A stretch of 64,000 nucleotides of DNA from Rhodococcus oxybenzonivorans (GTDB lineage: Bacteria; Actinomycetota; Actinomycetes; Mycobacteriales; Mycobacteriaceae). Shown one piece after another: positions 32,618 to 59,356 of this stretch (position 1 is the stretch's first letter; each line of letters starts with the position of its first letter). The translations under genes were made by a program, and so were the position numbers. The notes beneath the pieces are model-generated. The model made no database searches. It saw only the letters and a program-made list of their open reading frames with translations, and had not been told where the DNA came from. Where the stretch lies: contig NZ_CP021354.1 in the NCBI RefSeq assembly GCF_003130705.1, positions 310,001 through 374,000 on the forward strand. The letters run 5' to 3'.

Positions 32618-32645
32618 CTTAGCGGTAAGCCTTTGAGGGCTTAAG
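32618..32645. promoter_or_regulatory. TTAGCGCTAA-type operator, copy 1 (MFS-ALDH operon)
   Basis: CTTAGCGGT and GGCTTAAG form imperfect inverted arms across 28 bp, 31-58 bp before the MFS gene. The layout, including TTGAG between the arms, matches the copies at 35621 and 55257. Confidence 0.6.
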
Positions 32646-32676
32646 TAAATGCCTCGACACAACCCTGAGGATGCTC

Positions 32677-34053
32677 ATGACGACGGTATCGCCCGCCATG
32701 GCTGCCACAGCTGAGATGATCAGCGCCCGCCTCGAACGCCTGCCCATGAGCAGGTGGCACATCAAGGCGCGCGTCATCGTCGGAGCCGTCACGTTCTTCG
32801 ACGGATTCGACCAGCTGATGATCGCCTACTCGCTTCCCGTTCTCACTCCCAAGTGGAACCTCACTCCGTCCTCGATCGCCTGGGTCATCGCGATCGGCGG
32901 TATCGGCATGCTGGTCGGCGCACTCGCCGGCGGCTGGTTCGCCGACCGCGTCGGACGCCTCAACGTCATCATCGCCTCACTCGCCCTGTATGCGGTGATG
33001 AGTCTCGGGATGGCGTTCACCGACAGCCTGATGCTGTTCCTCGTCTTCCGATTCGTGCAGGGTATCGGCCTCGGCGCCGAAGTCCCGGTGGCTGCAAGCT
33101 ACATCGGCGAGATCACCAAGGCCCACAAACGAGGACGCTTCGTCCTCCTCTACGAGGTCATCTTCCCCGTCGGCCTCGTCATGTCGGCCGTCGTGTCGGC
33201 CTGGGTGGTGCCGAACTTCGGCTACAAGATCCTGTTCGCCCTCGGCGCGCTGCCCATCCTTCTGCTGCCGTTGCTGTGGAAACTCCCGGAATCGCCGCGC
33301 TGGCTGGCCTCCCGCGGACGCTTCGAAGACGCGAACAAGGCGATGACGCAGATCGAACGTGAGATCACCGACAGGTACGGCAAGACTCTGCCTACCCCGC
33401 AACCGCTGCCCGCTGTCGCGGTCGACGTCCGCCGCGGCCGGTTCATCGAAGCTTTCCAGGGCGTCTACCTGCGCCGCACGCTGATGCTCGCCGCGATCTG
33501 GGGATGCGCCTACTTCGTCAATTACGGCATCGCCTCCTGGCTGCCGTCGCTCTACCACTCCGCGTTCGACGTCAGCGTCGACACGGCGCTGCATTACAGC
33601 ATTGTCACCAGCGTCGCCGGTCTGCTCGGCTGTGTCCTCGTCGCGTTCCTCATCGACAACCTCGGACGCCGCATCTGCATCACCGCATCGATGGTCCTGT
33701 GCTCGTCGCTGCTGTTCCTGCTGGCCGCGACCGGTGCGGACACCGCAACCAAGGTGCTGTTCTGGTCTGCCGGATCCGCCCTGTTCGTCTTCGCCGTCAA
33801 CATGGCGCTGTACGTCTACACCGCCGAGCTGTATCCCACCCGGATGCGGGCCATCGGCTGCGCCATCGGCGGCGCAAGCGGTCGCCTCGGCATCATCGTC
33901 GGACCGCTGGTCGTCGGCGCCATCCTCGGCGGCGGCGGCTCCCTCACCATGGTCTTCGGAATGTTCGCGGCCGTGGCCCTGATCGGTGCCCTCGTGGTCG
34001 GCTTCTTCGCCGTCGAAACCCGCGAGAAGACCCTCGAGGAGATTTCACAGTGA
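32677..34053 (+). CDS. MFS transporter, aromatic-acid/sugar-porter-like
   Basis: This secondary transporter of about 458 residues has 12 predicted membrane helices. The loop motif GGWFADRVGR lies between helices 2 and 3, RFVQGIGLGAEVPVAASYIGE over helices 4-5, PESPRWLASRGR in the central loop and YTAELYPTRMRA in the second half. The pattern is close to proton symporters for aromatic acids and related carboxylates. ATG 32677 lies 6 bases after GAGG; ATG 32671 is alternative. It is coupled by GTGA to the aldehyde dehydrogenase. It probably imports the substrate of the catabolic operon downstream. Confidence 0.88.
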   Translation: MTTVSPAMAATAEMISARLERLPMSRWHIKARVIVGAVTFFDGFDQLMIAYSLPVLTPKWNLTPSSIAWVIAIGGIGMLVGALAGGWFADRVGRLNVIIASLALYAVMSLGMAFTDSLMLFLVFRFVQGIGLGAEVPVAASYIGEITKAHKRGRFVLLYEVIFPVGLVMSAVVSAWVVPNFGYKILFALGALPILLLPLLWKLPESPRWLASRGRFEDANKAMTQIEREITDRYGKTLPTPQPLPAVAVDVRRGRFIEAFQGVYLRRTLMLAAIWGCAYFVNYGIASWLPSLYHSAFDVSVDTALHYSIVTSVAGLLGCVLVAFLIDNLGRRICITASMVLCSSLLFLLAATGADTATKVLFWSAGSALFVFAVNMALYVYTAELYPTRMRAIGCAIGGASGRLGIIVGPLVVGAILGGGGSLTMVFGMFAAVALIGALVVGFFAVETREKTLEEISQ

Positions 34054-35558
34054 CCGCTCTCGACTTCCGTGAAGCGACGCTGCCGTTCGCTCCGATCGCC
34101 GATCGCATCTTCGTCGGCGGAACTTGGCGGCAGGGGACCGGGCCGGCCTTCGAGGTCACCGACCCGTCCACCGGCGAGGTCCTGCAGGTCGTGCACCAGG
34201 CGACGACCACCGACGTCGACGAGGCGGTCCGTCGGGGTCGCGCCGCCGCCGAGGACCCAGCCTGGCGCAGCCTGCTGCCGCATCAGCGGGCGAAGTTCCT
34301 GCACCGCATCGCCGACGCGATCGAGGCGAACACATCCCGGCTGGCACTGTTGCAGAGCTACAACACGGGCAAGACCGTCGCGGAAACCACTGCGCTGGTC
34401 GGCAGTGCCGCGGGTACGTTCCGGTACTTCGCTGCGGTCCTCGAGACCGCCGACGAAGACCTGACCACGCCGCGCGGCAACTACCTCACGATGAGCGTCC
34501 ACGAACCCATCGGCGTGATCGGTGCCATCGCGCCCTGGAACTCGCCGGTGGCCAGCGACGCCCAGAAGATCGCGCCCGCCCTCGCCGCGGGCAACGCCGT
34601 CGTCCTCAAGCCCGCCGAGTGGACACCGCTGGTGTCGCTGGAACTGGCTCGAATTCTCGACGAGACCGGCCTGCCCGCCGGACTGCTGTCGGTGCTCCCG
34701 GGGAAGGGCTCGGTGGTCGGTGACGCGATCGTCCACCACCCCGGTGTCGGGAAAGTGACGTTCACCGGCGGCACCAACACCGGCCGCGCCATTGCCCATG
34801 CCGCGGCCGAGAAGTTGATGCCCGTCTCGCTCGAGCTGGGCGGTAAGTCGCCGACCATCGTGCTGGACGACGCCGACATCGACGCGGCGGTCAACGGCGT
34901 GATGTACGGGATCTTCTCGTCGACCGGGCAGAGCTGCATCGCCGGATCCCGGTTGTTCGTCGACCGCCGGATCTACGAGGAGTTCCTCGCGAAACTGGTG
35001 GCCAAGACGCAGCGACTGCGACTCGGTCCCAGCCGTGACCCCGACACCCAGGTGGGACCGATGGTGCACCGCAAGCACCGCGACAGCGTCGCCGCATACG
35101 TCGACCTCGCTCGCGAAGAGGGCGGACGAGTGCTGTGCGGCGGGGCGATCCCCGACGACGAACGGCTCCGCGACGGCGCGTACTACCTGCCGACGATCAT
35201 CGACGGGCTCCCCAACACGTCACGCACGTGTCAGGAGGAGATTTTCGGGCCGGTGCTGGTGGTCCTGCCGTTCGACGGTGAGGCCGATCTGGTGGCACAG
35301 GCTAATGATTCGGTGTTCGGGCTGGCGTCGGGAATCTGGACCGGCGACTATCGCCGGGCCTGGAAACTCGCCCGCCGACTACAGGCCGGGACGGTGTGGA
35401 TCAACACCTACAAACAGTTCAGCATCTCCACGCCGTTCGGCGGCGTCAAGGAAAGCGGGCTGGGAGTCGAGAAGGGGCGCAGCGGTATCGCCGCCTACTC
35501 GCGGCAGAAGAGCATCTACTGGGGCCTCGACGAAGAACCCAACCCGTGGGCTGATTGA
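34050..35558 (+). CDS. Aldehyde dehydrogenase
   Basis: This 502-residue NAD(P)-dependent enzyme starts at GTG 34050, overlapping the MFS stop. Motifs are IAPWNSPVASDAQKIAPAL for the cofactor pocket, FTGGTNTGR, catalytic Glu in LELGGKSP and catalytic Cys in STGQSCIAGSR. It may oxidise the aldehyde released by the ThDP-dependent decarboxylase-like enzyme encoded at 39455. The exact aldehyde is not known. Confidence 0.9.
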   Translation: MTALDFREATLPFAPIADRIFVGGTWRQGTGPAFEVTDPSTGEVLQVVHQATTTDVDEAVRRGRAAAEDPAWRSLLPHQRAKFLHRIADAIEANTSRLALLQSYNTGKTVAETTALVGSAAGTFRYFAAVLETADEDLTTPRGNYLTMSVHEPIGVIGAIAPWNSPVASDAQKIAPALAAGNAVVLKPAEWTPLVSLELARILDETGLPAGLLSVLPGKGSVVGDAIVHHPGVGKVTFTGGTNTGRAIAHAAAEKLMPVSLELGGKSPTIVLDDADIDAAVNGVMYGIFSSTGQSCIAGSRLFVDRRIYEEFLAKLVAKTQRLRLGPSRDPDTQVGPMVHRKHRDSVAAYVDLAREEGGRVLCGGAIPDDERLRDGAYYLPTIIDGLPNTSRTCQEEIFGPVLVVLPFDGEADLVAQANDSVFGLASGIWTGDYRRAWKLARRLQAGTVWINTYKQFSISTPFGGVKESGLGVEKGRSGIAAYSRQKSIYWGLDEEPNPWAD

Positions 35559-35620
35559 GCGACCCGCTCGTAGATAGGGCGTACAGAAAAATCTCCCACC
35601 AGCTCTGTACGGCCCAATAC

Positions 35621-35647
35621 TTTAGCGCTAAGATATTGAGACCTAAG
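35621..35647. promoter_or_regulatory. TTAGCGCTAA-type operator, copy 2 (ring-cleavage operon)
   Basis: TTTAGCGCT and AGACCTAAG are arms with a 9-bp spacer, 17 bp before the dioxygenase start. Just upstream, GTACAGA (35581) and TCTGTAC (35604) make another inverted repeat. The spacing of the arms is identical to the copy at 55257. Confidence 0.65.
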
Positions 35648-35663
35648 CAACTGGAGGCACGCG

Positions 35664-36593
35664 ATGAATCAACCCATAGCCCGGCTGCGGTGCCTGCGCT
35701 CCGTGGAGCTGCGGACGCAAGCCAGCACGGAATCCACCGAGTTCTATTCGGAGGTCTGGGGCCTTCGTGTTGTCGATCAGGGTGCGACCGGTGCCTGGCT
35801 GCGGGGAACCGGTGAGCACCACCACGCGCTGCAGCTCACCCAGGCCGAGCGGAACGGCCTCGGCCGCATCACCTTCGCAGTCGCCACACCCGCAGAGGTC
35901 GACGAGGCCGCCCGCCGACTCGAGTCCTGGGGTGTGCCGATCGTCAGCGGGCCGGGCCCCGTCGACGACCTCGGTGGTGGATACGGTGTGAGCCTCGTCG
36001 ACCCCGAAGGTCGCGTCGTCGAGCTGCTCGCCGATGCGCTGGCGGTCCCGAAGCTCGGCCGGGAGGACGCCGTCCCGGTGGGCGTCACGCACGTCGTCCT
36101 CAACACCGTCGACATCGACGCCGCGGTGAAGTTCTACTGCGACGTCCTGGGCATGCGGGTCTCCGACTGGTCCGAGCACCAGATGGCGTTCCTTCGCTGC
36201 AACACCGACCATCACAGCATCGCGTTCAACCAGGCCGAGTGGACGTCGGTGAATCACGTCGCCTACGAGATGCCCACCGTCGACCACTTCATGCGCGGCA
36301 TCGGGCGGCTTCGGCACCACGGCACCGTGCCGCTGTGGGGTCCCGGCAAGCATGGCCCCGGCGACAACACCTTCTCGTACTTCGCCGACCCGGCGGGGCT
36401 GGTGTGCGAGTACACCTCCGGCATCGCGCAGGTCGACGAGGACCGGTGGCTGTGCAAGGTGTGGCGACGGGTGCCCGAACTCTCCGACCTGTGGGGCACC
36501 GCGGGCCCGCCGTCCAAGCAGGTCCGCGACCACATGGCCGGCATCCCCGACCCCGGCGCGTTCGAGCGGTTCGACCTCGGGCGGGCGTCGTGA
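35664..36593 (+). CDS. VOC-family extradiol-type ring-cleavage dioxygenase
   Basis: This 309-residue protein has two vicinal-oxygen-chelate modules, as in type I extradiol dioxygenases. Probable iron ligands in the C-terminal module are His in GVTHVVLNT, His in SVNHVAYEM and Glu in LVCEYTSG. The N-terminal module has lost its ligands, as is normal. By family, it would open a catechol-like or hydroxylated heteroaromatic ring next to a hydroxyl group. The family also includes non-dioxygenases. ATG 35664 follows TGGAGG. It heads an operon of at least seven genes. Confidence 0.8.
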   Translation: MNQPIARLRCLRSVELRTQASTESTEFYSEVWGLRVVDQGATGAWLRGTGEHHHALQLTQAERNGLGRITFAVATPAEVDEAARRLESWGVPIVSGPGPVDDLGGGYGVSLVDPEGRVVELLADALAVPKLGREDAVPVGVTHVVLNTVDIDAAVKFYCDVLGMRVSDWSEHQMAFLRCNTDHHSIAFNQAEWTSVNHVAYEMPTVDHFMRGIGRLRHHGTVPLWGPGKHGPGDNTFSYFADPAGLVCEYTSGIAQVDEDRWLCKVWRRVPELSDLWGTAGPPSKQVRDHMAGIPDPGAFERFDLGRAS

Positions 36594-37372
36594 CGCACGT
36601 CGTCGAATCCGGTTCCGGCCCCGCACTGCTGATGCTGCACGGCATCGGTGGCAGTGCAGACAGTTTCGCACCGCAGTTCGACGAACTGTCGGACTCGCTG
36701 CGACTGCTGGCCTGGGACGCTCCCGGGTACGGCCGCAGCGAGGACCCGGGCCGTCCGTTCGACCTCGACGACTACGCCGACGCAGCGGCCGACGTGATCC
36801 GCGACCGCTGCGGTGATGCTGGGGCACACGTCCTGGGTATGTCGTGGGGCGGGGTGATCGCGACCCGCATCGCCCTGCGTCATCCCGACCTCGTGCGAAG
36901 CCTCCTGCTCGGCAGTTCGACCGTCGGTTCGGGGGCCGACGGCGAGACTGCCGGCCGGATGCGGACCCGGGCTGCAACGCTTGCTCAGCAAGGCGCCGAA
37001 GCCTTTGCGGGGGAACGCGCCCCACGCCTGTTGTCCGGAACGGCCGGCGCCGAACTGACCGCGAAGGCCACGGCGATCATGGCCGCGTCGATCCGGCTCC
37101 CCGGCTACGGGTACGCCGCCGACTCCATGGCAGCCACCGATCACACCGCCGACCTCGCGAAGATCGACATCCCGACCCTGGTCCTGAGTGGAGACGAGGA
37201 CACCGTGACGGGAATTCCTGCGAGCCAGGTGCTGGCGGGCGGTATTCCGGGCGCCGTTTTCGTGACCGTCAGGGGTGCAGGACATCTCGCGAACCAGGAG
37301 CGACCGGACGCGTTCAACGCCTGGGTCGAGTCCTTCATTTTCATCACCGAACGCCTACGCAACCACCTCTAG
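36590..37372 (+). CDS. Alpha/beta hydrolase (ring-fission product hydrolase-like)
   Basis: This 260-residue hydrolase starts at GTG 36590, overlapping the dioxygenase stop. The oxyanion motif is MLHGIGGS, the nucleophile Ser is in LGMSWGG, the acid is in SGDEDTV and the His is in GAGHLANQE. The size and its coupling to an extradiol dioxygenase fit a meta-cleavage product hydrolase or enol-lactone/amide hydrolase. The sequence alone does not tell which. Confidence 0.87.
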   Translation: MTHVVESGSGPALLMLHGIGGSADSFAPQFDELSDSLRLLAWDAPGYGRSEDPGRPFDLDDYADAAADVIRDRCGDAGAHVLGMSWGGVIATRIALRHPDLVRSLLLGSSTVGSGADGETAGRMRTRAATLAQQGAEAFAGERAPRLLSGTAGAELTAKATAIMAASIRLPGYGYAADSMAATDHTADLAKIDIPTLVLSGDEDTVTGIPASQVLAGGIPGAVFVTVRGAGHLANQERPDAFNAWVESFIFITERLRNHL

Positions 37373-37386: not shown

Positions 37387-37893
37387 ATGACACTCGACTA
37401 CGGCACCGCCGACCTGAAGGAATTCACCGATTCGCTGATCCTGACCCGTGGCTCCCGCCACGAGGACTGGGACACCCTGGGCTTCCAGGCCAAGGCCGGT
37501 GACCAGTTCAAGCGCGCACAGATCCGCTACGTCGGTTCCGGAGCCACCGGGAACCACGACAACGACAACCGGACCATCCCGTCGCGCGGATTCACCTTCT
37601 CCAACATGCTCCTTCCCCCTGGCGCCGAGGGTCCCGAGCACACCCACCACGACGCCGAGGAAGCCTTCTTCGTCCTCGAGGGCGAGGTGGAGGTCGGTGT
37701 TCACCGCGACGGCAAGGTGGAGAAGCGCACCCTCGGCTACCGAGACATGATCGTCGTCCCGGCCGGGGTTCCGCGCAGCTTGAAGAATAATGGCGACAAG
37801 GACGCCCTGTTCTGCGTCATCATCGGCGCGCAGAAGCCGCAGATCCCGACGTACCCCGAGACGTCGGCCATGCACGGTGTGACACGGGACTGA
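37387..37893 (+). CDS. Cupin-domain protein
   Basis: This 168-residue single-cupin protein has the metal-binding motif 1 EHTHHDAEEAFFVLEGEVEVG (His, His, Glu) around residues 82-102. Motif 2 is weak: GYRDMIVVPAGVPRSLKNNG has no His after PAGVP, where most metal cupins have one. It may be an isomerase, a dioxygenase-like enzyme or a ring-fission product tautomerase. ATG 37387 follows AGAAGGAG. Confidence 0.8.
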   Translation: MTLDYGTADLKEFTDSLILTRGSRHEDWDTLGFQAKAGDQFKRAQIRYVGSGATGNHDNDNRTIPSRGFTFSNMLLPPGAEGPEHTHHDAEEAFFVLEGEVEVGVHRDGKVEKRTLGYRDMIVVPAGVPRSLKNNGDKDALFCVIIGAQKPQIPTYPETSAMHGVTRD

Positions 37894-37895: not shown

Positions 37896-38645
37896 GTGAA
37901 TCTCGACGGGAAATCCATCGTCGTCACCGGTGCCGGGCGCGGCCTCGGTCTGGCCATCGCCCGCCGGCTCGGTGAGGACGGCGCCGATCTGTGGCTCGCC
38001 GACATTCGCGAAGACTGGGGAGAGTCGGCGGTGGAGAGCCTGCGCGCCGACGGCGTGAAGGCACAGTTCGTCCACGTCGATCTGTGCGACGCCGAAGCCG
38101 TCTCCGCAATGGCCGCCACCGTGACCTCCGGTGGCCCTCTGTACGGGCTCGTCAACAACGCGGCCCTCGCGGATGGAGTGGGCGGCAAACCGATTCACGA
38201 ACTCGACATCGACGAGTGGGACAAGGTGCTGGGCGTCAACCTGCGCGGCACCTTCCTCGTGAGCAGGGCGATCATTCCCGCCATCATCGGGAACGGAGGC
38301 GGACGAGTCGTCACCATCGGCTCCGACGCCGCCCTGTACGGCTCACCCCGTCTTGCGCACTACATCGCCTCCAAGGGTGGGGTGGCCGCCCTCACCCGGG
38401 CCATGTCACGCGACCTCGGCCCGCACGGCATCACCGTCAACACCGTCTCGCCCGGTCTGACCGAAAGCGAATCGGCGCAGAAGGTTCCGGAGCACCGGCA
38501 CGAGCTGTACCGCCTCAACCGGGCACTCGAGCGGCCGCAGCAACCGTCCGATCTGGTCGGCGCCGTCGCGTTCCTGATGGGGCCCGAGGCGTCGTACATC
38601 ACCGGTCAGCAACTCGTCGTCAACGGCGGATTCGTCCTGCACTAG
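37896..38645 (+). CDS. SDR-family oxidoreductase
   Basis: This 249-residue short-chain dehydrogenase starts at GTG 37896, three bases after the cupin gene. It has TGAGRGLG for cofactor binding, Asp in WLADIREDW (suggesting NAD+), NNAA, the catalytic Ser in TIGSDAALYGS and YIASK. The end VNGGFVLH is typical. With the next gene it makes a pair of SDRs that could successively oxidise alcohols of a dihydrodiol or side chain. Confidence 0.88.
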   Translation: MNLDGKSIVVTGAGRGLGLAIARRLGEDGADLWLADIREDWGESAVESLRADGVKAQFVHVDLCDAEAVSAMAATVTSGGPLYGLVNNAALADGVGGKPIHELDIDEWDKVLGVNLRGTFLVSRAIIPAIIGNGGGRVVTIGSDAALYGSPRLAHYIASKGGVAALTRAMSRDLGPHGITVNTVSPGLTESESAQKVPEHRHELYRLNRALERPQQPSDLVGAVAFLMGPEASYITGQQLVVNGGFVLH

Positions 38646-38661: not shown

Positions 38662-39444
38662 GTGGACCTGCAACTGAAAGACCGCACCTACCTGGTGACC
38701 GGCGGAAGCTCGGGAGTCGGGCTCGCCACCGTCGCGATGCTGCTCGAGGAGGGTGCCAACGTCGTCACCTGCGCGCGCGACCGCGACCGGCTCGACTCCG
38801 TCATCGCACCGCTGCCCGGCAGCGACCGCGTTCTCACCGCGTCCTGTGACGTGCGGGACCCGGCCGCGGTCGCCGCACTCGTCGAGGCGGGGGTCGAGCG
38901 GTTCGGCGGCCTCGACGGTCTGGTCAACAACGCAGGCAAGTCCCGCATGGTCCCGCGCGGTGAGGCGACCCTCGACGACTGGCGCGACGAACTCGACCTC
39001 AAGTTCTCCAGCGTCCTCAACACCGTCGAGGCCGCCCTGCCACTGCTGCGCAAGTCCGACGCCGCGGCCATCGTCAACATCTCGGCGGTGCTCGCGCGGC
39101 AGCCCGAGCCGCGGCTGGTCACCACCAGCGCCGCCCGGGCCGGACTGCTGAACCTCAGCAAGTCGCTGTCGCTGGAACTCGCGGCCGACGGCATCCGCGT
39201 CAACTCGGTGTCGTTGGGACTGGTCGACACCGGCCAGTGGCGGCGCCGCTACGAGGAATCCGGCACCGACGCCACCTTCGCCGAATGGGAGGCGGAGATC
39301 GCCCAGGACCGCGGCATCGGACTCGGCCGGTTCGGCCGCGCCGACGAGGTGGCGGCCATGATCGTGACCCTGCTGTCTCCCCGCTCGTCCTATGTGACGG
39401 GCACCAGCCTCGACGTCTGCGGAGGCGTCGCCCGTTATGTCTGA
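38662..39444 (+). CDS. SDR-family oxidoreductase
   Basis: This 260-residue enzyme has GGSSGVGLA for cofactor binding, NNAGKS and a catalytic region reading NISAVLARQPEPRLVTTSAARAG. The usual YxxxK is replaced here: T-T-S-A-A-R occupies the place of Y-S-A-S-K. An atypical SDR lacking Tyr/Lys could be a non-catalytic or altered enzyme. GTG 38662 follows AGAAGGGG. The stop lies within the start region of the ThDP enzyme. Confidence 0.82.
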   Translation: MDLQLKDRTYLVTGGSSGVGLATVAMLLEEGANVVTCARDRDRLDSVIAPLPGSDRVLTASCDVRDPAAVAALVEAGVERFGGLDGLVNNAGKSRMVPRGEATLDDWRDELDLKFSSVLNTVEAALPLLRKSDAAAIVNISAVLARQPEPRLVTTSAARAGLLNLSKSLSLELAADGIRVNSVSLGLVDTGQWRRRYEESGTDATFAEWEAEIAQDRGIGLGRFGRADEVAAMIVTLLSPRSSYVTGTSLDVCGGVARYV

Positions 39445-39454
39445 GAGGAACACC

Positions 39455-41086
39455 ATGTCCGTAGGAAATGGCGGCGACCTGCTCGTCCAGGTGCTGCGCG
39501 AGGCCGGTGTCGACACCGTGTTCGGCATCGTGAGCGTCCACAATCAGCCCCTGGTGCAGGCGGTCAGCAAGCACCTGCGGTTCGTGCCGGTCCGGCACGA
39601 GGCCACCGCGGTCAGCGCGGCCGACGGGTATGCCCGGGCCACAGGCGGACTCGGCTGCGCCCTCACGAGCACCGGCACCGGTGCTGGCAACGCGGCCGGC
39701 TCGCTGATCGAATCGCTCAGTGCCGGTACGTCGGTGCTGCATGTGACGGGCAACGTCGAGAGCCGGTACCTCGGCTCGGGTCGCGGATTCATCCACGAGA
39801 CCAAGGATCAGCTGGGGATGCTGACGGCGACGTCGAAGCATGCCGCCACCATCCTCGACACCGACAGTGCGGGAAAGACGCTGCGGGAGGCGGTCGCCCA
39901 GGCTCTGGCAACGCCCGGCGGACCGGCGAGCATCGAGTGGCCGATCGACCTCCAGTACGCCGAGCACGACATCGACGTGGTCGAGCAGGTGTCGGAGAGC
40001 GTCCGGACCCCCGACGCCGACGAACTCGCCGCGGCACGGTCGTTGTTGGCTGCGGCCGAGCGCCCCGTCATCTGGGCCGGCGGCGGTGTCGCACGAGTCG
40101 GTGCCGAGCTGACCGAGCTGGTGGAGCTGTGGGGAGTCCCGTTGCTCACCAGCAACTCCGGGCGCGGCGCCGTGCCCGAGGACCATCCACTGTGCATCGG
40201 CAACTACGGCAACACGCCGGTGGGCCGGGAACTCCTCCAGGACGCCGACCTGCTGCTGTCGCTGGGAACCCACTTCCGGTCCAACGAGACCGGCGACTAC
40301 TCCATGCCCGTTCCCGCCGTGCACGTGCAGGTGGACGTCGATGCCGCCGCGCTCGGCCGCGTGTACCCCGCACAGGCCGGGGTAACCGCCGAGATCGGAA
40401 CGTTCCTTCGGGCACTCACCGATCTGGCTCCGGTCGACGCCGCCTGGACCGAACGTGCCCGCACCACCCGCGAACTCGTCCGCAGCAAGCAGCGCGCCGG
40501 ACTCGGCGATCACGCCGTGCTGTGCGACGCAGTGCGTGCCGCGTTCCCGCAGGATTCCGTCATCGCCCGTGACGTCACCATTGCGTCGAGTTCCTGGGGC
40601 AACCGGCTGCTGCCGATGTTCGACCCCAAGTCCAACGTCTTCCCCCGCGGCGGTGGCATCGGGCAGGGTCTGGGCATGGCCATCGGTTCCGCATTGGCCG
40701 ACGAAACCCGGCCCACCCTGGCGCTCGTCGGCGACGGCGGCCTGGCCGTCCACTTCGGCGAGATCCTCACCATGGCGCAGGAGAAGCCGTGGCTGGTGCT
40801 GCTCGTGTTCAACGACGGCGGCTACGGCGTGCTCCGCAACATGCAGAAGGGCGGGGGTGACGACACCTACGCGGTCGACCTCGTCACGCCCGACTTCCCG
40901 CTGCTCGCCCAGTCGATCGGGGTGCCGTACCTGCGGATCGGCGGTGCCGAAGAGGCCCATGCCGTGCTCGCGGACGCGGTCTCGCGGCAGGCGCCGGTGA
41001 TCGTCGAGGTGGATCTCGCCGCGTACGGCGACATGCCCGCGCCATTCACGCCTCCCGTCACAGTGCCCGGAAAGGATGCGAAATGA
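39455..41086 (+). CDS. ThDP-dependent enzyme, benzoylformate decarboxylase/acetolactate synthase-like
   Basis: This 543-residue thiamine-diphosphate enzyme has the activating Glu in VRHEATAVSAADGYAR and the ThDP/Mg motif GDGGLAVHFGEILT...VFNDGGYG. The substrate would be a 2-oxo acid, decarboxylated to an aldehyde or ligated to a second carbonyl. It has no clear FAD-binding segment, which favours decarboxylase over acetolactate synthase. ATG 39455 follows AGAGGAAC; ATG 39437 is also in frame. Its aldehyde product could be used by the dehydrogenase at 34050. Confidence 0.87.
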   Translation: MSVGNGGDLLVQVLREAGVDTVFGIVSVHNQPLVQAVSKHLRFVPVRHEATAVSAADGYARATGGLGCALTSTGTGAGNAAGSLIESLSAGTSVLHVTGNVESRYLGSGRGFIHETKDQLGMLTATSKHAATILDTDSAGKTLREAVAQALATPGGPASIEWPIDLQYAEHDIDVVEQVSESVRTPDADELAAARSLLAAAERPVIWAGGGVARVGAELTELVELWGVPLLTSNSGRGAVPEDHPLCIGNYGNTPVGRELLQDADLLLSLGTHFRSNETGDYSMPVPAVHVQVDVDAAALGRVYPAQAGVTAEIGTFLRALTDLAPVDAAWTERARTTRELVRSKQRAGLGDHAVLCDAVRAAFPQDSVIARDVTIASSSWGNRLLPMFDPKSNVFPRGGGIGQGLGMAIGSALADETRPTLALVGDGGLAVHFGEILTMAQEKPWLVLLVFNDGGYGVLRNMQKGGGDDTYAVDLVTPDFPLLAQSIGVPYLRIGGAEEAHAVLADAVSRQAPVIVEVDLAAYGDMPAPFTPPVTVPGKDAK

Positions 41087-50360: not shown

Positions 50361-51064
50361 CTACAACCGAGCATCGCGTGAACTCCGAGGTCACCACCTT
50401 CGTGGAGGCAGCGAGGCGCGCCGCGGACAAGGCTTTCGCCGTATTCCGGAGCACCGGTACCGTGTCGGCCAACGGCACCGTCAATTTCGTCGAACGGGTC
50501 CCGGGCACCGAGATCGCCGTCGCGCTGAACGATCCCGGCCCGTGGGCTGATGATCCCCACGTGTCACCGGTCGTGGCGACCTTCGACGGTGACGTGCTGT
50601 CGGGTAACGGTTCTGCCGGATTCGTCACCGGCTACGCCGCCGTCTTCCGGCAGCATCCCGAGATCACCAGCGTCGTCCACATCCACACACCGTGGCTCGG
50701 CGGCTGGGCGCAAACCCACCGCACCTTGCCGATCCGGTACGCCGCGTCACAGCGACTGACGCTCTCGCGGGAGATTCCGCCGCACATCGATCGTTCGCAG
50801 TCGGCGGGCGACTTCATCCTCGAGCGCCTGCAGGACGACCCGGACCTCGTGGCCATCTTCGAGGCCAACGGCGGTGTCAACGTGATCGGCCGCAACGGCC
50901 TGCTCGAGCTCGCAAAATTCGTCGTTCTCCTCGAAGAAGGCGCACAATTCCAGGCAATCGCCGAATCTCTCGGCGGTTCGGTCGAATTCGACCCCTCGAA
51001 CCTCGCCGTGCAGTGGGGACGCTCGGGGCTCGCCGACGAGGCCCGCCGGCGCGGCCTCCTCTGA
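50357..51064 (+). CDS. Class II aldolase/adducin family protein
   Basis: This 235-residue protein has the class II aldolase fold. Zinc ligands are probably in SVVHIHTPW (His-x-His), and a further His is expected near IPPHIDRS. The FVTGYAAVFRQHPEITS segment is typical. Family members cleave or epimerise sugar-phosphate-like substrates or decarboxylate and dehydrate hydroxy acids. In this operon it may process the carbon skeleton left after desulfonation. ATG 50357 overlaps the previous stop. Confidence 0.82.
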   Translation: MTTTEHRVNSEVTTFVEAARRAADKAFAVFRSTGTVSANGTVNFVERVPGTEIAVALNDPGPWADDPHVSPVVATFDGDVLSGNGSAGFVTGYAAVFRQHPEITSVVHIHTPWLGGWAQTHRTLPIRYAASQRLTLSREIPPHIDRSQSAGDFILERLQDDPDLVAIFEANGGVNVIGRNGLLELAKFVVLLEEGAQFQAIAESLGGSVEFDPSNLAVQWGRSGLADEARRRGLL

Positions 51065-52047
51065 TGTCCTCACCTTCCCCAAATCGAACAGAACAGGCAA
51101 CGGCCATGACAGTCCGTGTCGGATACTTCCCGCACAATAACTCGCTTTTCGTGCTGCGGCACACAGGAATCCTCGAGCGTCGGCTACCCGACGTCGAATG
51201 GGTGGATCTGCGCAACCTTCCGTCGAAGCCGCCCGTCGATCCCACCAACGCCCTTCCGACCCTGCATTCCGACTGGCTGTTCGAGGACGGCGGCTACGAC
51301 GTCATCGGCACCGGATTCACCCCGCCGATCACCGGCCTGGCGCACGACCGCGACCTCGTCTACATCGGCATCTCCGGGCCCCGCGTCGAAAACGGCCGCC
51401 TCGTCGTGAAGGCGGAGTCCGGCATCGACGCCGTCGAGGATCTTCGCGGAAAGCGCGTCGGCATCGCACACGGCTCATGGCAGACGACGCTGCTCCTGTT
51501 CGCGCTCGACCGGGCCGGGCTCACCTGGTCCGACATCGTTCCCGTTGACACCGACGTGCGCGGAGGCGGAGGCGAACTCGTCAGCGGAACCATCGATGCG
51601 TGGGTCGGCGCATACCCGGGGCTGGCGGAGATCGAAGCCGAGCACGCACTGCGCACGCTCGTCGAAACGGACGGACTCTTCAGCCACCCCTCGCTGTGGT
51701 TCACCCGCCGCGCCTTCGCGGAAAACAACGCCGAGCAGCTGCGGGCCGTCGTCGAGGCGCTGCAGGAGTCGGACGCCTGGATCGAGGCACACACGCGCGA
51801 AGCGGCGCAGTTCTTCGTCGACGACGTCGAGCGGCGTGGCGGCACCGCCAGTCTCGATGCCTGGGAAGCGGCGCTGCGCGGCCGGCCCTTCGGCATCCAC
51901 CCGGTGACCGACGAATTCCTGGACGAACAGCAACACGCCGCCGACCTCCTGCTGGCCAACGGACTCCTCCCGCGGTCGATCCGGGTCCGCGACGCCGTGG
52001 TACCGGAGATCGGCGAGTTGGTCACCGCCGATCGCGCCGCCGTGTAG
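51064..52047 (+). CDS. SsuA/NMT1-like protein without signal peptide
   Basis: This 327-residue protein has the binding-protein fold (GISGPRVENGRLVVKAESGIDAVEDLRGKRVGIAHGSWQ over residues 110-150; SGTIDAWVGAYPG). It has no signal peptide and no Cys in the position used by DszB. The start is ATG 51064 (one base overlap, TGATG) or ATG 51106. Either it is exported by an unseen route, or it is a cytoplasmic ligand-binding protein or enzyme relative. It is the last gene of the organosulfur operon. Confidence 0.75.
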   Translation: MSSPSPNRTEQATAMTVRVGYFPHNNSLFVLRHTGILERRLPDVEWVDLRNLPSKPPVDPTNALPTLHSDWLFEDGGYDVIGTGFTPPITGLAHDRDLVYIGISGPRVENGRLVVKAESGIDAVEDLRGKRVGIAHGSWQTTLLLFALDRAGLTWSDIVPVDTDVRGGGGELVSGTIDAWVGAYPGLAEIEAEHALRTLVETDGLFSHPSLWFTRRAFAENNAEQLRAVVEALQESDAWIEAHTREAAQFFVDDVERRGGTASLDAWEAALRGRPFGIHPVTDEFLDEQQHAADLLLANGLLPRSIRVRDAVVPEIGELVTADRAAV

Positions 52048-52157: not shown

Positions 52158-52892
52158 ATGGACACCACGATCACCGAGATCGCACCCGACATCTACCGCA
52201 TGTCGACGTACATCGACGACGCGAACCTGATCATGAACCAGTTCCTCGTCGACGGTGAGGAACCGCTGCTCTTCCACACCGGACAGCGGTTCCTCTTCCC
52301 CTCGGCATCCGAGGCGGTCGCTCGGCTGATCCCACTCGACCGATTGCGATGGATCACGTTCGGCCACGTCGAGGCCGACGAGTGCGGCGCGATGAACTCG
52401 TGGCTCGGGGTTGCGCCGCACGCCGAGGTCGCACATGGGGCGATGGGCTGCTTCGTGCAGGTGAACGACCTGGCCGACCGTATGCCTCGGCCCCTCGACG
52501 ACGGCGACGTCCTCGAGACGGGGACGCGGCGGGTGCGCCACATCGACACCCCGCATGTCCCGCACGGTTGGGATGCGGGACTCATGTTCGAGGAGACGAC
52601 GTCGACCCTGTTCTGTGGAGATTTGTTCACCGCGTTCGGTCATCATCCCGCCCTGACCGAAGAGGAGTTGCTCGGTCCGGCGCTGGACGGTGAGGACAAC
52701 GGGAGGGCGACGTGCCTGACACCGGCGCTCGAACCGACCATCCGCGCATTGGCGGACCTCGAACCCTCAACCCTGGCACCTATGCATGCACCGGCCTTCA
52801 CCGGCGACTGCGTCCAGGCGCTGCACGACCTCGCTTCCGCCTACGAGCAACGGTTCGAAGCCGAACGCGAACGGTACGCCGGCCGGCACTGA
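52158..52892 (+). CDS. MBL-fold protein of the oxygen-binding di-iron (ODP/FprA) type
   Basis: This 244-residue protein has the HxExD metal motif in GHVEADE, near residue 68, rather than the HxHxDH of hydrolases. Further ligands appear in PHVPHGWDAG, FCGDLF and APMHAPAF. This set is that of the flavo-di-iron MBL domain, but without the flavodoxin domain. Such stand-alone proteins are thought to sense or reduce O2 or NO. It stands alone, 110 bp after the organosulfur operon and 132 bp before katE. Confidence 0.75.
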   Translation: MDTTITEIAPDIYRMSTYIDDANLIMNQFLVDGEEPLLFHTGQRFLFPSASEAVARLIPLDRLRWITFGHVEADECGAMNSWLGVAPHAEVAHGAMGCFVQVNDLADRMPRPLDDGDVLETGTRRVRHIDTPHVPHGWDAGLMFEETTSTLFCGDLFTAFGHHPALTEEELLGPALDGEDNGRATCLTPALEPTIRALADLEPSTLAPMHAPAFTGDCVQALHDLASAYEQRFEAERERYAGRH

Positions 52893-55256: not shown

Positions 55257-55283
55257 CTTAGTGCTAAATTATTGAGCACTAAG
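55257..55283. promoter_or_regulatory. TTAGCGCTAA-type operator, copy 3 (Rieske operon), best palindrome
   Basis: CTTAGTGCT and AGCACTAAG are perfect 9-bp arms around a 9-bp spacer, 25 bp before the reductase start. This is the clearest copy of the shared motif. Confidence 0.7.
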
Positions 55284-55307: not shown

Positions 55308-56267
55308 ATGACAACAGACGCAGACACCATCCCCATGATGGTCCGTCAGATGCGGGTCGAGTCCTCGGGCGTCGTCTCGCTCCGCCTCGAACGGCCCGAC
55401 GGCGGGGCCGTCCACGAGTGGACCCCGGGTGCCCATCTGGATCTGCACCTGGGCGGCGGCACCGTGCGGCAGTACTCCCTCTGCGGCGATCCCGACGACA
55501 AGACCGGATACCGAGTCGCGGTCCTGCACGAGGCACACGGTCGCGGCGGGTCCCGGCACATTCACGAGACGCTGCGTCCCGGCGACACCGTTCCGGTGAG
55601 CCCACCGCGAAACAACTTCGAATTCCTTCCCTCTCCCCGCTACCTGTTCGTCGCCGGTGGAATCGGAATCACACCGCTCCTCGCAATGATCGGCGAAGCC
55701 ACGCGGATGGGCGCCGCCTGGGAACTGCACTACGGCGGACGCTCCCGCGCGTCGATGGCATTCCTCGACGAACTGTCCGCGCACGGCGAACGGGTGCAGG
55801 TCGTCACCGAAGACGTGGACGGCATCCTCGACCTGAACGCTCTCCTCGGCGAGGTTCGCGATAACACCCTCGTCTACGCGTGCGGACCCGAAGGCCTGCT
55901 CGCCGCCATCGAGAACGTCGCCTCCGCGTGGCCCGAAGGGTCCATTCAGCTCGAACGTTTCAAAGCCAAGGAAATACCCGCCGACACGCTGGCCGGTGAC
56001 CGGCCGGTCCGGGTCGTCTGCGAGCGGTCGGGCATCTCCACCACCGTCGCCGCCGACAGGACCGTCCTCGACGCGCTCGAGGAAGCCGGTGTCGACGTCC
56101 CCAACTCGTGCCGGGAAGGCATCTGCGGTACCTGCGAAACCCGTGTCCTGTGCGGCACCCCCGATCACCGTGACTCGCTGCTCTCGAGCGCCGAGCAGGA
56201 GTCCGGCACAACCATGATGATCTGCGTTTCCCGCGCCCGCTCCGACGAGCTGGTGCTGGACCTCTAG
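55308..56267 (+). CDS. Oxygenase reductase, phthalate-dioxygenase-reductase type
   Basis: This 319-residue electron-transfer protein has an FMN-binding RQYSLC motif near residue 60, an NAD-binding domain with VAGGIGITPLL and YACGPEGLL, and a C-terminal plant-type [2Fe-2S] ferredoxin (CREGICGTCETRVLCGTP...C). It carries electrons from NADH to the Rieske oxygenase encoded at 56498. ATG 55308 follows CAGGAG. First gene of the operon. Confidence 0.92.
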   Translation: MTTDADTIPMMVRQMRVESSGVVSLRLERPDGGAVHEWTPGAHLDLHLGGGTVRQYSLCGDPDDKTGYRVAVLHEAHGRGGSRHIHETLRPGDTVPVSPPRNNFEFLPSPRYLFVAGGIGITPLLAMIGEATRMGAAWELHYGGRSRASMAFLDELSAHGERVQVVTEDVDGILDLNALLGEVRDNTLVYACGPEGLLAAIENVASAWPEGSIQLERFKAKEIPADTLAGDRPVRVVCERSGISTTVAADRTVLDALEEAGVDVPNSCREGICGTCETRVLCGTPDHRDSLLSSAEQESGTTMMICVSRARSDELVLDL

Positions 56268-56497: not shown

Positions 56498-57529
56498 ATG
56501 GTGAATCGACTGAACAAGACGGCACTGACCAGCGACGAGATCTTCGCCACCGGCATGCGGAACCAATGGCACGCGGTCTGTCCCTCGGACTTCGTCGCGC
56601 GCGGCGACATGAAGAAGGTGCGACGCCTCGGCGAGGACTGGCTTCTCTTCCGTCAGTCCGACGGAAGCCTCCGCATGCTCGCCGACAGGTGCCCGCACCG
56701 CGGAGCGCCGCTGTCGCAGGGACAGCACCTCGGCGACCGGGTCGCCTGCAAATATCACGGGGTCCAGGTCGACGTCGGCGGAACCGTCGTGTCCGTGCCG
56801 GGAATGCCCGGGTGCAATCTCGAGGGAAAGCGGCTCGTCACCAGCCTCCCGGTGCGTGAGGTGGCCGGCGCAGTCCTGGCATGGTTCGGCACGGATCCGG
56901 ACGCCGAACCGGGTCCCCTCGACCTCCCCGAACGCCTGGTGGACGACGGTATTTCCCGTTTCCTCTGCTACGCCGAATGGAAGGCGCCCTGGCGCTTCAC
57001 CCTCGAGAACCTGCTCGATCCGATGCACGGCGCGTTCCTGCACCGCGAGTCGCATTCGATGTTCGGCGGGGAAACGTCCGCCAAGTTCCGCATCCGGGAA
57101 ACCGATCGCGGGTTCTTCTTCGAGAAGACCGATCAGCGCGGCGTGAACTTCGACTGGGTCGAATTCTGCCGGACCGGAGTCGACTGGGTCGACCTGGAAA
57201 TCCCGTACCCGCCCACCGCAGGCCCCGGCGGATCGTTCGGCATCGTCGGGATGGGAACGCCCATCGACGCCGAGACCACCGCCGTCTTCTTCTGGCGGTA
57301 CCGCCGGGTGGAGGGCTGGGAGCGCGACGTCTGGCGCTTCCTCTACCGCACGAAACTCGAGGAGCGGCACTGGGCGGTTCTCGAACAGGACCGGGTCATG
57401 CTCGAGGCGATGGCCGCCGACGCCGACCAGGCCGAGAACCTCTACCAGCACGACCTCGGGGTCATTCGCCTGCGCCGTCTCTACCGGAGCCAGGCCGCAG
57501 CGCAGGCGGAGGCGCTCGCTGGAGCGTAA
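56498..57529 (+). CDS. Rieske non-haem iron oxygenase, alpha subunit
   Basis: This 343-residue oxygenase has the Rieske cluster ligands CPHRG (C-x-H) and CKYHG (C-x2-H) in the first third. The mononuclear iron site is in NLLDPMHGAFLH, with the Asp/His-x4-His pattern, and an acidic third ligand downstream. The size and single-subunit arrangement fit VanA-like or ketosteroid-hydroxylase-like oxygenases that hydroxylate or demethylate. It works with the reductase at 55308. ATG 56498 is placed by the two-base gap to the small gene. The substrate is unknown. Confidence 0.92.
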   Translation: MVNRLNKTALTSDEIFATGMRNQWHAVCPSDFVARGDMKKVRRLGEDWLLFRQSDGSLRMLADRCPHRGAPLSQGQHLGDRVACKYHGVQVDVGGTVVSVPGMPGCNLEGKRLVTSLPVREVAGAVLAWFGTDPDAEPGPLDLPERLVDDGISRFLCYAEWKAPWRFTLENLLDPMHGAFLHRESHSMFGGETSAKFRIRETDRGFFFEKTDQRGVNFDWVEFCRTGVDWVDLEIPYPPTAGPGGSFGIVGMGTPIDAETTAVFFWRYRRVEGWERDVWRFLYRTKLEERHWAVLEQDRVMLEAMAADADQAENLYQHDLGVIRLRRLYRSQAAAQAEALAGA

Positions 57530-57563: not shown

Positions 57564-57571
57564 AAGAATGT

Positions 57572-58237
57572 GTGACGGCCGACACGTCGGGAGCCGGCCG
57601 GTACGAGGAGGCGCGAGCGGTGCACGAAAACGACGGCGTTGCGGATCGGTGTGCGTTGATCGAGGTGGCGGGTCGTTGCTTCGCGGAGCTCGGATACGAC
57701 AAGACCACGGAGGCGGTCATCGCGGAGAACGCCGGCAGGTCGGTGACAGACTTCCGTCGGCACTTCCGGTCCACGAAGGACGCATTTCATGCGGTGGCCG
57801 CCGCCGTGTTCGAGAAGTTCCTCGAAGCGCAGCGCACCGCGGTACCGCCGGACGCGGACCCTCGTACCGTCCTGGGCGCGGCCACTGCCGCATTCATCGA
57901 CACCGTCTACAGCGTCGGCCGGCTCTTCACCGTCATCGAAGCGCGGGCGGCCGTCGACCCCGTGGTCGGTGAGCAGCTGTCGCAGGCGCACACCCGGATC
58001 CTGGCCCGGTACACCCGCTTCATCGAAAGGCTGGACGAGGCCGGGATCGCACGGCCCTGCGCCGAGGCCGCCCAGCTCGCCCGCAAGCTGTCGGATGCGC
58101 AGTGGCGGGGAGCCGCCCACCTGATCGGCGCCTCCCCGGACGAGCAACGTCGGTTCATCGTCGAGATGACGGCGGCAGCCGAACGCTTCATCGGATTCGA
58201 CTGCGACACCGAACTCGTCGAGAGGCCGGCCTGCTGA
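57572..58237 (+). CDS. TetR-family transcriptional regulator
   Basis: This protein of about 221 residues starts at GTG 57572 or GTG 57620. The HTH spans LGYDKTTEAVIAENAGRSVTDFRRHFRSTKDAF near residues 40-72; the DFRRHFRS tail replaces the usual LYYHFPS. The remainder is an effector domain. It lies between the Rieske operon and the MarR gene and probably regulates itself through the repeat at 57539. Confidence 0.85.
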   Translation: MTADTSGAGRYEEARAVHENDGVADRCALIEVAGRCFAELGYDKTTEAVIAENAGRSVTDFRRHFRSTKDAFHAVAAAVFEKFLEAQRTAVPPDADPRTVLGAATAAFIDTVYSVGRLFTVIEARAAVDPVVGEQLSQAHTRILARYTRFIERLDEAGIARPCAEAAQLARKLSDAQWRGAAHLIGASPDEQRRFIVEMTAAAERFIGFDCDTELVERPAC

Positions 58238-58273: not shown

Positions 58274-58801
58274 CTAGGTGAGGGGCGTCTGGTTGTCGAC
58301 GATCGAATGTTCGAGTTTGCGGAGCAGTTCCGCGAGTGACGCCTGATCCTTCGCGGACATACCACTGAGAATTCGCGCCTCGTTCGCGAAGTGGGCCTCC
58401 GCCACCTTCTCGATCACCCGAAGGCCCTCGTCGGTGAGCTGTGCGTACACGATCCGGCGGTCTTCGGCGTCCCGCTCACGCTCGACGAGACCCGCCTTCT
58501 CCAGCCGGTCGACCCGAAGGGTCACGCCCCCGGTGGTCACGAGAGCGGACTCCGCCAACTGCCCGGACGTCATCCGGTAGGGCGGACCCGAACGCCGCAG
58601 CGCGGCGAGCACATCAAACGACGCCATGTTGATGCCGTGCTCTTCGAACACGACAGCCAGCGAGGCCTGGTAACGCAGGTACGAACGGTGCAAGCGGCCC
58701 AGAACCTTCAGTGGACTCACATCCAGCTCAGGCCACTGGTGCGCCCACTGATCGACGATGTCGTCGACGGCGTCACGGTCGGGAACCGGGCGTTGCGTCA
58801 C
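58274..58801 (-). CDS. MarR-family transcriptional regulator
   Basis: This 175-residue regulator starts at GTG 58801 (CAGGAGG upstream). The winged helix is in MTSGQLAESALVTTGGVTLRVDRLEKAGLVERERDAEDRRIVYAQLTDEG across residues 95-145, with the wing Asp-Arg-Arg typical of MarR proteins. It is the best candidate to bind the CTTAGYGCT palindromes at 32618, 35621, 55257 and 59345, and to respond to an aromatic acid. That link is inference from proximity only. Confidence 0.9.
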   Translation of the reverse strand: MTQRPVPDRDAVDDIVDQWAHQWPELDVSPLKVLGRLHRSYLRYQASLAVVFEEHGINMASFDVLAALRRSGPPYRMTSGQLAESALVTTGGVTLRVDRLEKAGLVERERDAEDRRIVYAQLTDEGLRVIEKVAEAHFANEARILSGMSAKDQASLAELLRKLEHSIVDNQTPLT

Positions 58802-58810
58802 CGGGGCGCC

Positions 58811-58835
58811 TCCTGAACTTTGTGGGTCCTGAACT
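58811..58835. repeat. Direct repeat TCCTGAACT x2 before the MarR gene
   Basis: Two identical 9-mers at 58811 and 58827, 16 bp apart, overlap the ribosome site and leader of the MarR gene. They could be a control site but could also be chance. Confidence 0.3.
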
Positions 58836-58940
58836 GTTGAGTCCCAAGGTATCGGATTGTCGGGAGGAGGGGACGCGCCGCGGGTCCCCGTCCGGTGTGT
58901 CGAGGACGGGGACCCGCGGTCGTCTGGTCGGGGGAGTGGC

Positions 58941-59306
58941 TCAGCGGCCACCGACTGCGGCGACGGCGTCGATCTCCGCGATCGCGCCGTACGGGAGGCT
59001 ACTCACCTCGAGGAAGGTGCGGGCTGGGCGCGGCTCGTCGAAGATGCGCTCGAACTGCCGGTTGGCCTCTTCACGCAGGGTCAGGTCGGTGACGTAGTAG
59101 GTCAGCTTCACGACGTCCTGAAGCTGACCACCCACGGTGGCGAGGCGATCGACCATCCGGTCCACGGCGGCGTCGAGAGCTTCGGTGCGCCCGGGTACGG
59201 CAACGCCCTCGGCGTCGACGGACAGGGCACCCGAAACGAAGGCCAACCCTCCGGCGACCACGGCCGGGCTGTAGGGGTGATGGGCGGAGACTTCAGTCAT
59301 GGACAT
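58941..59306 (-). CDS. RidA family enamine/imine deaminase
   Basis: This 121-residue protein has the RidA fold, with the conserved Arg in RPARTFLEVSSLPYG and the Glu in IAEIDAVA at its C-terminus. RidA proteins hydrolyse enamines and imines to ketones and ammonia; one branch includes 2-aminomuconate deaminases of aromatic pathways. A CTTAGCGCTAAA site lies 39-50 bp upstream. Its place next to the MarR gene suggests that it handles a nitrogen-containing intermediate of the pathway. Confidence 0.87.
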   Translation of the reverse strand: MSMTEVSAHHPYSPAVVAGGLAFVSGALSVDAEGVAVPGRTEALDAAVDRMVDRLATVGGQLQDVVKLTYYVTDLTLREEANRQFERIFDEPRPARTFLEVSSLPYGAIAEIDAVAAVGGR

Positions 59307-59344
59307 GGGGACTCGCTTTCGAAGTAGGCGTCGACTCAGTATAT

Positions 59345-59356
59345 CTTAGCGCTAAA
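59345..59356. promoter_or_regulatory. TTAGCGCTAA-type operator, copy 4 (RidA gene)
   Basis: The minus strand reads TTTAGCGCTAAG followed by ATATACTGAG, nearly repeating the first half of the copy at 35621. The second arm is weak here. Confidence 0.55.

Follow-up and report, generated by a model that had tools for sequence, protein, structure and literature searches.

The window analysed here is a stretch of 64,000 nucleotides of Rhodococcus oxybenzonivorans DNA (positions 310001-374000 of contig 1, in a genome of 8,014,224 bases). Our subject is four gene units within it, each preceded by a copy of one palindromic operator element, and the MarR-family gene located downstream of ridA in one of them. 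The units would encode aromatic-acid uptake, Rieske hydroxylation, extradiol ring cleavage, thiamine diphosphate (ThDP)-dependent C-C cleavage, aldehyde oxidation and removal of imine or enamine nitrogen. The features are, by window position:

32618..32644, plus strand: two-box operator of the MFS-aldehyde dehydrogenase unit, CTTAGCGGTAAG-CCT-TTGAGGGCTTAA, boxes at 32618-32629 and 32633-32644
32677..34053, plus strand: MFS transporter; nearest NCBIfam model aromatic acid/H+ symporter, below cut-off
34056..35558, plus strand: aldehyde dehydrogenase
35621..35647, plus strand: two-box operator of the ring-cleavage operon, TTTAGCGCTAAG-ATA-TTGAGACCTAAG
35664..36593, plus strand: VOC-type extradiol dioxygenase; H143, H198 and E249, presumably the metal ligands, align with H155, H214 and E267 of homoprotocatechuate 2,3-dioxygenase
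36590..37372, plus strand: alpha/beta hydrolase
37390..37893, plus strand: cupin protein
37896..38645, plus strand: SDR oxidoreductase 1
38662..39444, plus strand: SDR oxidoreductase 2 (NCBIfam PRK07062, above cut-off)
39437..41086, plus strand: ThDP-dependent enzyme (NCBIfam PRK07064, above cut-off)
41083..42213, plus strand: FAD (flavin adenine dinucleotide) monooxygenase, absent from most homologous loci
42214..43362, plus strand: metallo-beta-lactamase-fold protein
55257..55283, plus strand: two-box operator of the Rieske operon, with the highest symmetry of the set, CTTAGTGCTAAA-TTA-TTGAGCACTAAG
55308..56267, plus strand: ferredoxin reductase with NAD and 2Fe-2S domains, a layout that is presumably VanB-like
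56498..57529, plus strand: Rieske oxygenase with CPH..CKYH and DPMHGAFLH, which we take to be the Rieske cluster motif and the iron motif
57572..58237, plus strand: TetR-like protein just under the cut-off (23.8 bits against 24), with matches confined to the close Rhodococcus group
58274..58801, minus strand: MarR-family regulator, the proposed repressor; winged-helix domain above the Pfam cut-offs (MarR_2 58.2 bits, cut-off 27; MarR 51.4 bits, cut-off 24.6)
58941..59306, minus strand: RidA-family protein
59345..59356, minus strand: single-box operator of ridA and probably of marR, 38 bp upstream of ridA, CTTAGCGCTAAA

The operator boxes

A first-pass annotation had linked four scattered operons by a shared palindrome, and its four sites are read directly in the sequence at the positions it gave. 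Its description of two 9-bp arms with a 9-bp spacer is exact only at 55257 (one match); the element consists instead of two dimer-sized boxes. The operator unit is a 12-bp near-palindrome, CTTAGYGCTAAG, and two copies with a 3-bp gap make up 27 bp, with 15 bp from centre to centre. This two-box form precedes the MFS, extradiol dioxygenase and ferredoxin reductase genes, and ridA has one box. Distances to the start codons, put earlier at 17-60 bp, measure 32 (or 26), 16, 24 and 38 bp for the MFS, extradiol dioxygenase, reductase and ridA genes, respectively. The partial site ascribed to ridA is indeed a box, with the correction that ridA lies on the minus strand and that the site also precedes a plus-strand UdgX gene. 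Because marR follows ridA on the same strand, after an intergenic gap of 139 bp, the ridA site probably serves marR too. The UdgX-type uracil-DNA binding protein gene (59409-60053, plus strand, divergent from ridA; TIGR03914 above cut-off) was rejected as a member of the regulon, since the 10-mer is retained without an adjoining UdgX match in four of nine close relatives.

The boxes overlap likely core promoters, and their positions therefore fit repression. In the window, the putative MFS promoter (TTGACG-N18-TTACAT) runs directly into the first box, and in the putative extradiol dioxygenase promoter of a Nocardioides locus (L077; TTGACA-N18-TAAATA) the boxes lie over the spacer, the -10 element and the region after it. 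This overlap, together with a TAANNT within several sites that could serve as -10 element, could also be read as a shared core-promoter motif kept by descent, with no operator function. Nevertheless, the two-fold symmetry and the favoured 15-bp pairing of the boxes, a placement relative to likely promoter elements that differs between the MFS and extradiol dioxygenase genes, and the restriction to one cluster in 8 Mb make this explanation very improbable.

Upstream of the MFS operator, at 32580-32592, there is another inverted repeat, GTCAAGGGTTGAC, which contains a -35-like TTGAC. It is kept in this genome and nine close relatives, a similar repeat is present in several Nocardia loci, and it may be the binding site of a second factor.

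Restriction, conservation and recurrence

The pattern TTAGYGCT-N9-AGCRCTAA, with up to three mismatches, has three matches in the window against 0.12 expected, a number reached by none of 100 shuffles. Genome-wide (8.01 Mb), TTAGYGCTAA is found in three places, every one inside this cluster, although this count is not above that of the backward-pattern control (4 per strand). Enrichment by count was likewise rejected for TTAGCGCTAA words (up to two mismatches, in the window), with seven found, 4.58 expected and 20 of 100 shuffles reaching seven. Since raw counts are not raised, the case is carried by position (all three places lie in the cluster), pairing and conservation. A genome scan for the motif had been suggested as a check on the first-pass claim, and a degenerate 26-mer based on the two-box sites matched nowhere else when up to three mismatches were allowed: it returned the three sites themselves and two shifted or opposite-strand readings of them (control, 0). 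A stricter 27-mer, at the same tolerance, recovered two of these sites, plus an unrelated place at 2,244,031. Scores of a two-box matrix were 30.6-35.9 at the three sites, on which that matrix was trained, and at best 13.6 in 200 random 64-kb sequences (first-order Markov).

The restriction extends to the genus. Among 28 Rhodococcus genomes, the ten with a close cluster have 30 of their 31 TTAGYGCTAA places inside it, three per genome; Rhodococcus sp. ARC_M6 has two in the cluster and one elsewhere, three genomes with only a distant cluster have none, and the 14 without a Rieske homologue have 14 in total. In each of two Rhodococcus genomes without the cluster (G014 and G017), two TTAGTGCTAA sites stand 1.5 kb from one another (L061, 6484 and 8029; L062, 7121 and 8666), perhaps marking the regulon of a related MarR protein.

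The nearest named relatives, by identity of the Rieske protein, are R. tibetensis (97%), R. opacus (95%), R. wratislaviensis (94%) and R. jostii (94%), which puts this genome in the opacus/jostii group. We compared the regions upstream of the MFS, extradiol dioxygenase, reductase and RidA genes in this genome and ten others (nine close ones and ARC_M6), and observed that the boxes are retained while their flanks drift. All four sites are present in ten close genomes, this one included, and the MFS operator is present in 11 of 11 genomes of the Rhodococcus group, own genome counted, in a diverged form in the more distant ARC_M6. There, the boxes are altered yet readable (for instance CTAAGCCCTAAG-TGA-TTGAGCGCTTAG before the MFS gene), the second extradiol dioxygenase box being poor.

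The relatives also bear on the layout. The units stand together within one 20-kb stretch in seven of ten relatives (G018, G001, G005, G015, G019, G024 and G021), and in the other three (G006, G020 and G023) a gap or other genes lie ahead of the reductase gene. In this genome and in R. tibetensis (G020), an IclR gene, NMT1-type transport genes and luciferase-like monooxygenases lie between the operons, and both of these genomes, like G023, have a catalase gene ahead of the reductase gene; no site accompanies any of these genes, and we rejected the NMT1/luciferase-like block, IclR and catalase as members of the regulon for this reason. The comparison thus indicates that the four operons are one cluster split here by insertions: of the first-pass picture of scattered operons, the shared switch stands, and the scattering becomes the breakage of a single cluster. 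The features between the operons are:

43390..44151 (start approximate), minus strand: IclR-type regulator, no site, outside the regulon
44378..52047, plus strand: inserted block of NMT1-type ABC transport genes, two luciferase-like monooxygenases and a class II aldolase, outside the regulon
52158..52892, plus strand: ODP-type metallo-beta-lactamase protein, which follows the ring-cleavage operon in seven of ten relatives and is separated from it here

The 44378..52047 block also occurs in R. tibetensis, the fetched stretches of the other close relatives matching a generic ABC ATPase only; with its adjoining IclR gene, it is a separate candidate catabolic system.

Beyond the genus, 80 homologous loci were fetched with the Rieske protein, 63 actinobacterial and 17 proteobacterial, and a two-box matrix was built from this genome, the nine close relatives and ARC_M6 only, with 58 actinobacterial loci held out. 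At these 58, the mean top score reached 19.8 with the boxes 15 bp apart and never more than 9.6 at the other distances between 10 and 40, and 200 permuted matrices gave a mean of 3.2 and a maximum of 9.9. At the proteobacterial loci the mean was 0.7 and none exceeded 6.8. The best match fell in a target promoter window at 19 of 23 loci (1.2 expected by area), at 22 of 35 more distant actinobacterial loci (2.3 expected) and at 2 of 17 proteobacterial loci (0.65 expected); with wider windows, 43 of the 58 matches lay in target promoters (4.1 expected by area). It counts against the boxes that permuted matrices also land in promoter windows (mean 14.5, maximum 43 of 58), and that matches at other spacings do the same (26-50 of 58). 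Location by itself is thus a weak argument, and it is the score at 15 bp that discriminates; we therefore rejected location as a stand-alone proof, AT-rich promoters drawing permuted matrices too. The 58 loci share ancestry and do not amount to 58 independent trials. Homologous clusters in other actinobacteria again show the two-box form, with a clear preference for 15 bp, and the 17 proteobacterial clusters do not; in Nocardioides, CTAAGCACTTAACGATTAAGCACTTAG or a near variant of it is present in three marR-MFS regions. One regulon linking the four units, as first proposed, is thus strongly supported by genome restriction, conservation and recurrence in other genera.

The proteobacterial loci bear on another candidate regulator, the IclR-type protein at 43390 to about 44151, which might control the cluster as IclR proteins presumably do in the proteobacterial versions. 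IclR genes are found in all seven annotated proteobacterial clusters, and one lies between the operons here; however, among the fetched relatives an IclR match occurs only in R. tibetensis, in the same block, and no two-box score exceeds 6.8 at the 17 proteobacterial loci, 13 of which have an IclR match. Control of the boxes by IclR is accordingly a very slim prospect.

Two further observations concern the range of the cluster. Five Nocardia genomes with low two-box scores (L204-L208) have a single box (CTTAGCGGTAAG or its complement, score 16.3) about 0.25 kb downstream of the linked marR. On a linear plasmid record of Streptomyces chartreusis (L213), which carries no annotation, a Rieske homologue (75.5%) and a ThDP homologue (63%) are separated by about 1.2 kb, so the cluster can sit outside the main chromosome.

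The MarR-family protein as candidate repressor

Of the 63 actinobacterial loci, 38 contain a MarR match. A genome search covering 21 of the remaining 25 (all except L097, L101, L108 and L118) gave a strong MarR match in every case, with marR beside the MFS gene at matching coordinates or, on a contig of equal length, within about 11 kb of the cluster; in two of the 21 (G125 and G126), marR adjoins a cluster-type aldehyde dehydrogenase gene on a contig not matched to the cluster. In total, 59 of the 63 actinobacterial loci have a MarR gene along with the cluster, the remaining four being those outside the search. The nine proteobacterial genomes searched gave no MarR match of comparable strength (best 4.6e-33). 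Boxes precede ridA-marR or marR itself in the Rhodococcus group, Nocardia and Nocardioides, and the window protein has such a site, 59345-59356, kept in relatives, before what would be its own operon if ridA and marR are co-transcribed. By co-occurrence, MarR is the best candidate for the regulator.

MarR paralogues of 38-53% identity exist in many genomes, and the factor on the boxes might be a different dimeric protein, MarR-like or encoded at an unlinked place, while this MarR acts elsewhere. The linked marR is, however, the best match in all 26 actinobacterial genomes searched (the 21 and five with a match inside the locus; G125 and G126 via the aldehyde dehydrogenase gene only), and its own or the ridA promoter has boxes in the three groups named above, so we consider another such factor improbable, if somewhat less so than the other alternatives. 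In some Nocardia genomes (L146, L147 and L149), the neighbour of marR, in tail-to-tail orientation, is a further MarR paralogue with 51-53% identity to the window protein, and reductase- or Rieske-like matches lie close by.

TetR proteins bind palindromes, some as two dimers, and the TetR-like gene at 57572-58237 lies within the regulon, in the Rieske operon, and is matched in nine of nine close relatives. Nevertheless, the ARC_M6 cluster, where the sites persist, has no TetR match, such a match is found in only 4 of 80 loci, confined to the close Rhodococcus group, and the protein is 70-75% identical in eight close relatives in which MarR is 92-96% identical. Binding of the boxes by the TetR-like protein thus seems quite unlikely.

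The MarR sequences themselves hold a possible trace of box recognition. Residues 89-92, which, going by known MarR structures, we take to be the start of the recognition helix, read TTGG in most sequences and SSAG in Streptomyces and Nocardioides. An A/T at box position 3/10, in at least one box, occurs in 9 of 11 distinct best sites with SSAG, in 1 of 30 with TTGG and in none of five others (sequences of at least 47% identity, sites scoring at least 14). This suggests that residues 89-92 contact position 3/10 directly.

Best structure matches by sequence are the MarR proteins 8ylf and 8ylh, followed by 8ylm, 5dd8 and 2fbk, the last two of which we take to be HucR; a literature search of open-licence papers returned no paper naming 8YLF. 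The window protein has W19, D63, R96 and R108, of which the last three align with residues 73, 106 and 118 of 5dd8 (W19 is outside the alignment). This Trp-Asp-Arg-Arg set, presumably the ligand-site pattern of urate-binding, HucR-like MarR proteins, is present in 86 of 93 MarR sequences (at least 47% identity, some from one genome), the others reading WGRR (six) or RDRR (one). The pattern suggests a planar, acidic ligand, without making urate that ligand, and no purine-degradation family is annotated in the regulon.

Several observations weigh against control by MarR through these boxes. The ridA site has only one good box, the -10 and -35 elements are guesses and differ between promoters, and the helix-box covariation rests on few lineages (Streptomyces and Nocardioides) and may be one ancestral change. 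Moreover, five Nocardia loci with a linked MarR (L095, L100, L107, L111 and L122) score low, 7.7-11.7, and six others (L085, L097, L099, L101, L113 and L120) score below 7. With these points weighed, we consider it quite probable that a MarR repressor controls the four units via CTTAGYGCTAAG boxes. MarR linkage, like the spacing and conservation of the sites, is observed in the genomes, and MarR binding and repression are predicted.

We propose that MarR would control MFS-aldehyde dehydrogenase; extradiol dioxygenase-hydrolase-cupin-SDR1-SDR2-ThDP enzyme-FAD monooxygenase-metallo-beta-lactamase protein; reductase-Rieske, possibly with the TetR-like gene; and ridA, with marR reached by read-through across the 139-bp gap. 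One MarR dimer would occupy each 12-bp near-palindrome, two dimers standing side by side, 15 bp apart, at three promoters, and MarR on the core promoter would block RNA polymerase until a substrate or intermediate binds it and causes its release.

By analogy, the cluster would work like the CouR regulon without being a member of it, which makes CouR its nearest working precedent. CouR of R. jostii RHA1, in the available part of its description, is a MarR-family repressor of an aromatic-acid pathway, with inverted repeats over a core promoter element at four promoters, a cATTGA-N5-TCAATg box over the -35 element, and p-coumaroyl-CoA as ligand (PMC4737184). As far as that part goes, genus, MarR family, four promoters and repeats at the core promoter are alike, as would be release by a pathway metabolite, which is a feature of CouR and is proposed here; unlike CouR, this cluster has two CTTAGYGCTAAG boxes and other genes, and no acyl-CoA synthetase is annotated in its regulon (PMC4737184). 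Membership of a CouR-type regulon was rejected, as the boxes are CTTAGYGCTAAG and do not correspond to the CouR box. HucR/PecS-type proteins, as covered by an excerpt on PecS, share an N-terminal helix with a conserved Trp and several palindromes per promoter: PecS has more than one palindromic site in a promoter region, but its site is an AT-rich 18-bp consensus beside the divergent efflux gene pecM (PMC6391409).

Candidate substrate and significance

Seven annotated proteobacterial regions, from Acinetobacter, three Caballeronia strains (four regions), Klebsiella and Novosphingobium, define a common core: all seven have Rieske, SDR, cupin, alpha/beta hydrolase, ThDP, MFS and IclR proteins, and six also have an aldehyde dehydrogenase, a VOC/glyoxalase protein and an aspartate dehydrogenase (the seventh region ends first; the last label follows the record annotation and, for open reading frames of other loci, the look of the sequence). 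RidA is found in one of the seven. Extradiol cleavage that leaves a second ring with a 2-oxo-acid side chain would fit a ThDP enzyme and an aldehyde dehydrogenase as the following steps, and RidA or aspartate dehydrogenase fits nitrogen release. The substrate is probably an aromatic acid, probably containing nitrogen.

The classical bacterial kynurenate route comprises 7,8-dioxygenation, diol dehydrogenation, extradiol cleavage, reduction, 2-oxo-acid decarboxylation and aldehyde oxidation. These steps match, in order, the Rieske, SDR, extradiol dioxygenase, SDR, ThDP and aldehyde dehydrogenase proteins, at the level of families only. We tentatively suggest, as a possibility well short of even chances, that the cluster is a pathway for kynurenate or a close quinoline-carboxylate and that MarR senses the acid in its HucR-like pocket. 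The Rieske oxygenase and its reductase would then dihydroxylate the benzo ring and SDR1 would make the catechol, which the extradiol dioxygenase would open, leaving the pyridine ring with a 2-oxo-acid side chain. SDR2 would reduce this product, the ThDP enzyme would decarboxylate it and the aldehyde dehydrogenase would oxidise the aldehyde, while cupin, hydrolase and RidA (an aspartate-dehydrogenase-like protein in sister clusters) would open the pyridine ring and free the nitrogen. Linkage to tryptophan 2,3-dioxygenase would support the proposal without being required by it. Matches to this family (PF03301) occur in 29 of 44 cluster-bearing genomes, in none within 20 kb of a fetched locus (contig identity is unchecked for the proteobacteria, and the match in G135 would be some 24 kb away from the edge of the locus, provided that the two share a contig). 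Chemistry is therefore the sole ground for the kynurenate proposal.

The iad type of auxin degradation locus uses a Rieske enzyme. As far as the partial sources on auxin degradation loci go, iac and iad resemble the cluster in having MarR regulators of aromatic catabolism, and the cluster here differs in its extradiol dioxygenase, ThDP enzyme and RidA. The lum lumichrome cluster of Nocardioides simplex, in the accessible portion of its report, combines Rieske, extradiol and thiamin-dependent steps on an N-heterocycle, but has an alpha/beta Rieske enzyme with separate ferredoxin, a P450, a xanthine oxidase and a two-protein ThDP enzyme, none of them annotated in the regulon (PMC12746152). A lumichrome pathway was rejected on the absence of P450, xanthine oxidase and alpha/beta Rieske from the annotated regulon genes, a comparison of annotations and not of the lum proteins directly. 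Homologue searches returned generic names only, and searches for the motif and gene set gave no match by title or abstract start among the open-licence papers listed, with no search aimed at kynurenate genes. The first-pass suggestion of an undescribed catabolic system is upheld to the extent that no matching pathway appeared in the open-licence literature searched, with the qualification that the system resembles the classical kynurenate route in gene content.

We conclude that the window holds a new, putatively MarR-controlled aromatic catabolic regulon, well supported as regards the regulon and its operator, with MarR as its likely repressor. On the strength of the conserved core, the choice of substrate is narrowed to an aromatic acid that probably contains nitrogen, and the operator could be used as a reporter to find the inducer. 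To our knowledge, the enzyme activities of the kynurenate route lack any genes; if the kynurenate proposal is true, genes would be assigned to these activities, and soil and host-associated bacteria would be linked to the removal of a tryptophan metabolite. Records of Acinetobacter, Klebsiella, Caballeronia and Novosphingobium contain this gene set too, there together with IclR genes, and the MarR protein and its boxes offer a candidate regulator-operator pair, common to several actinobacterial genera, for a widespread catabolic gene set.

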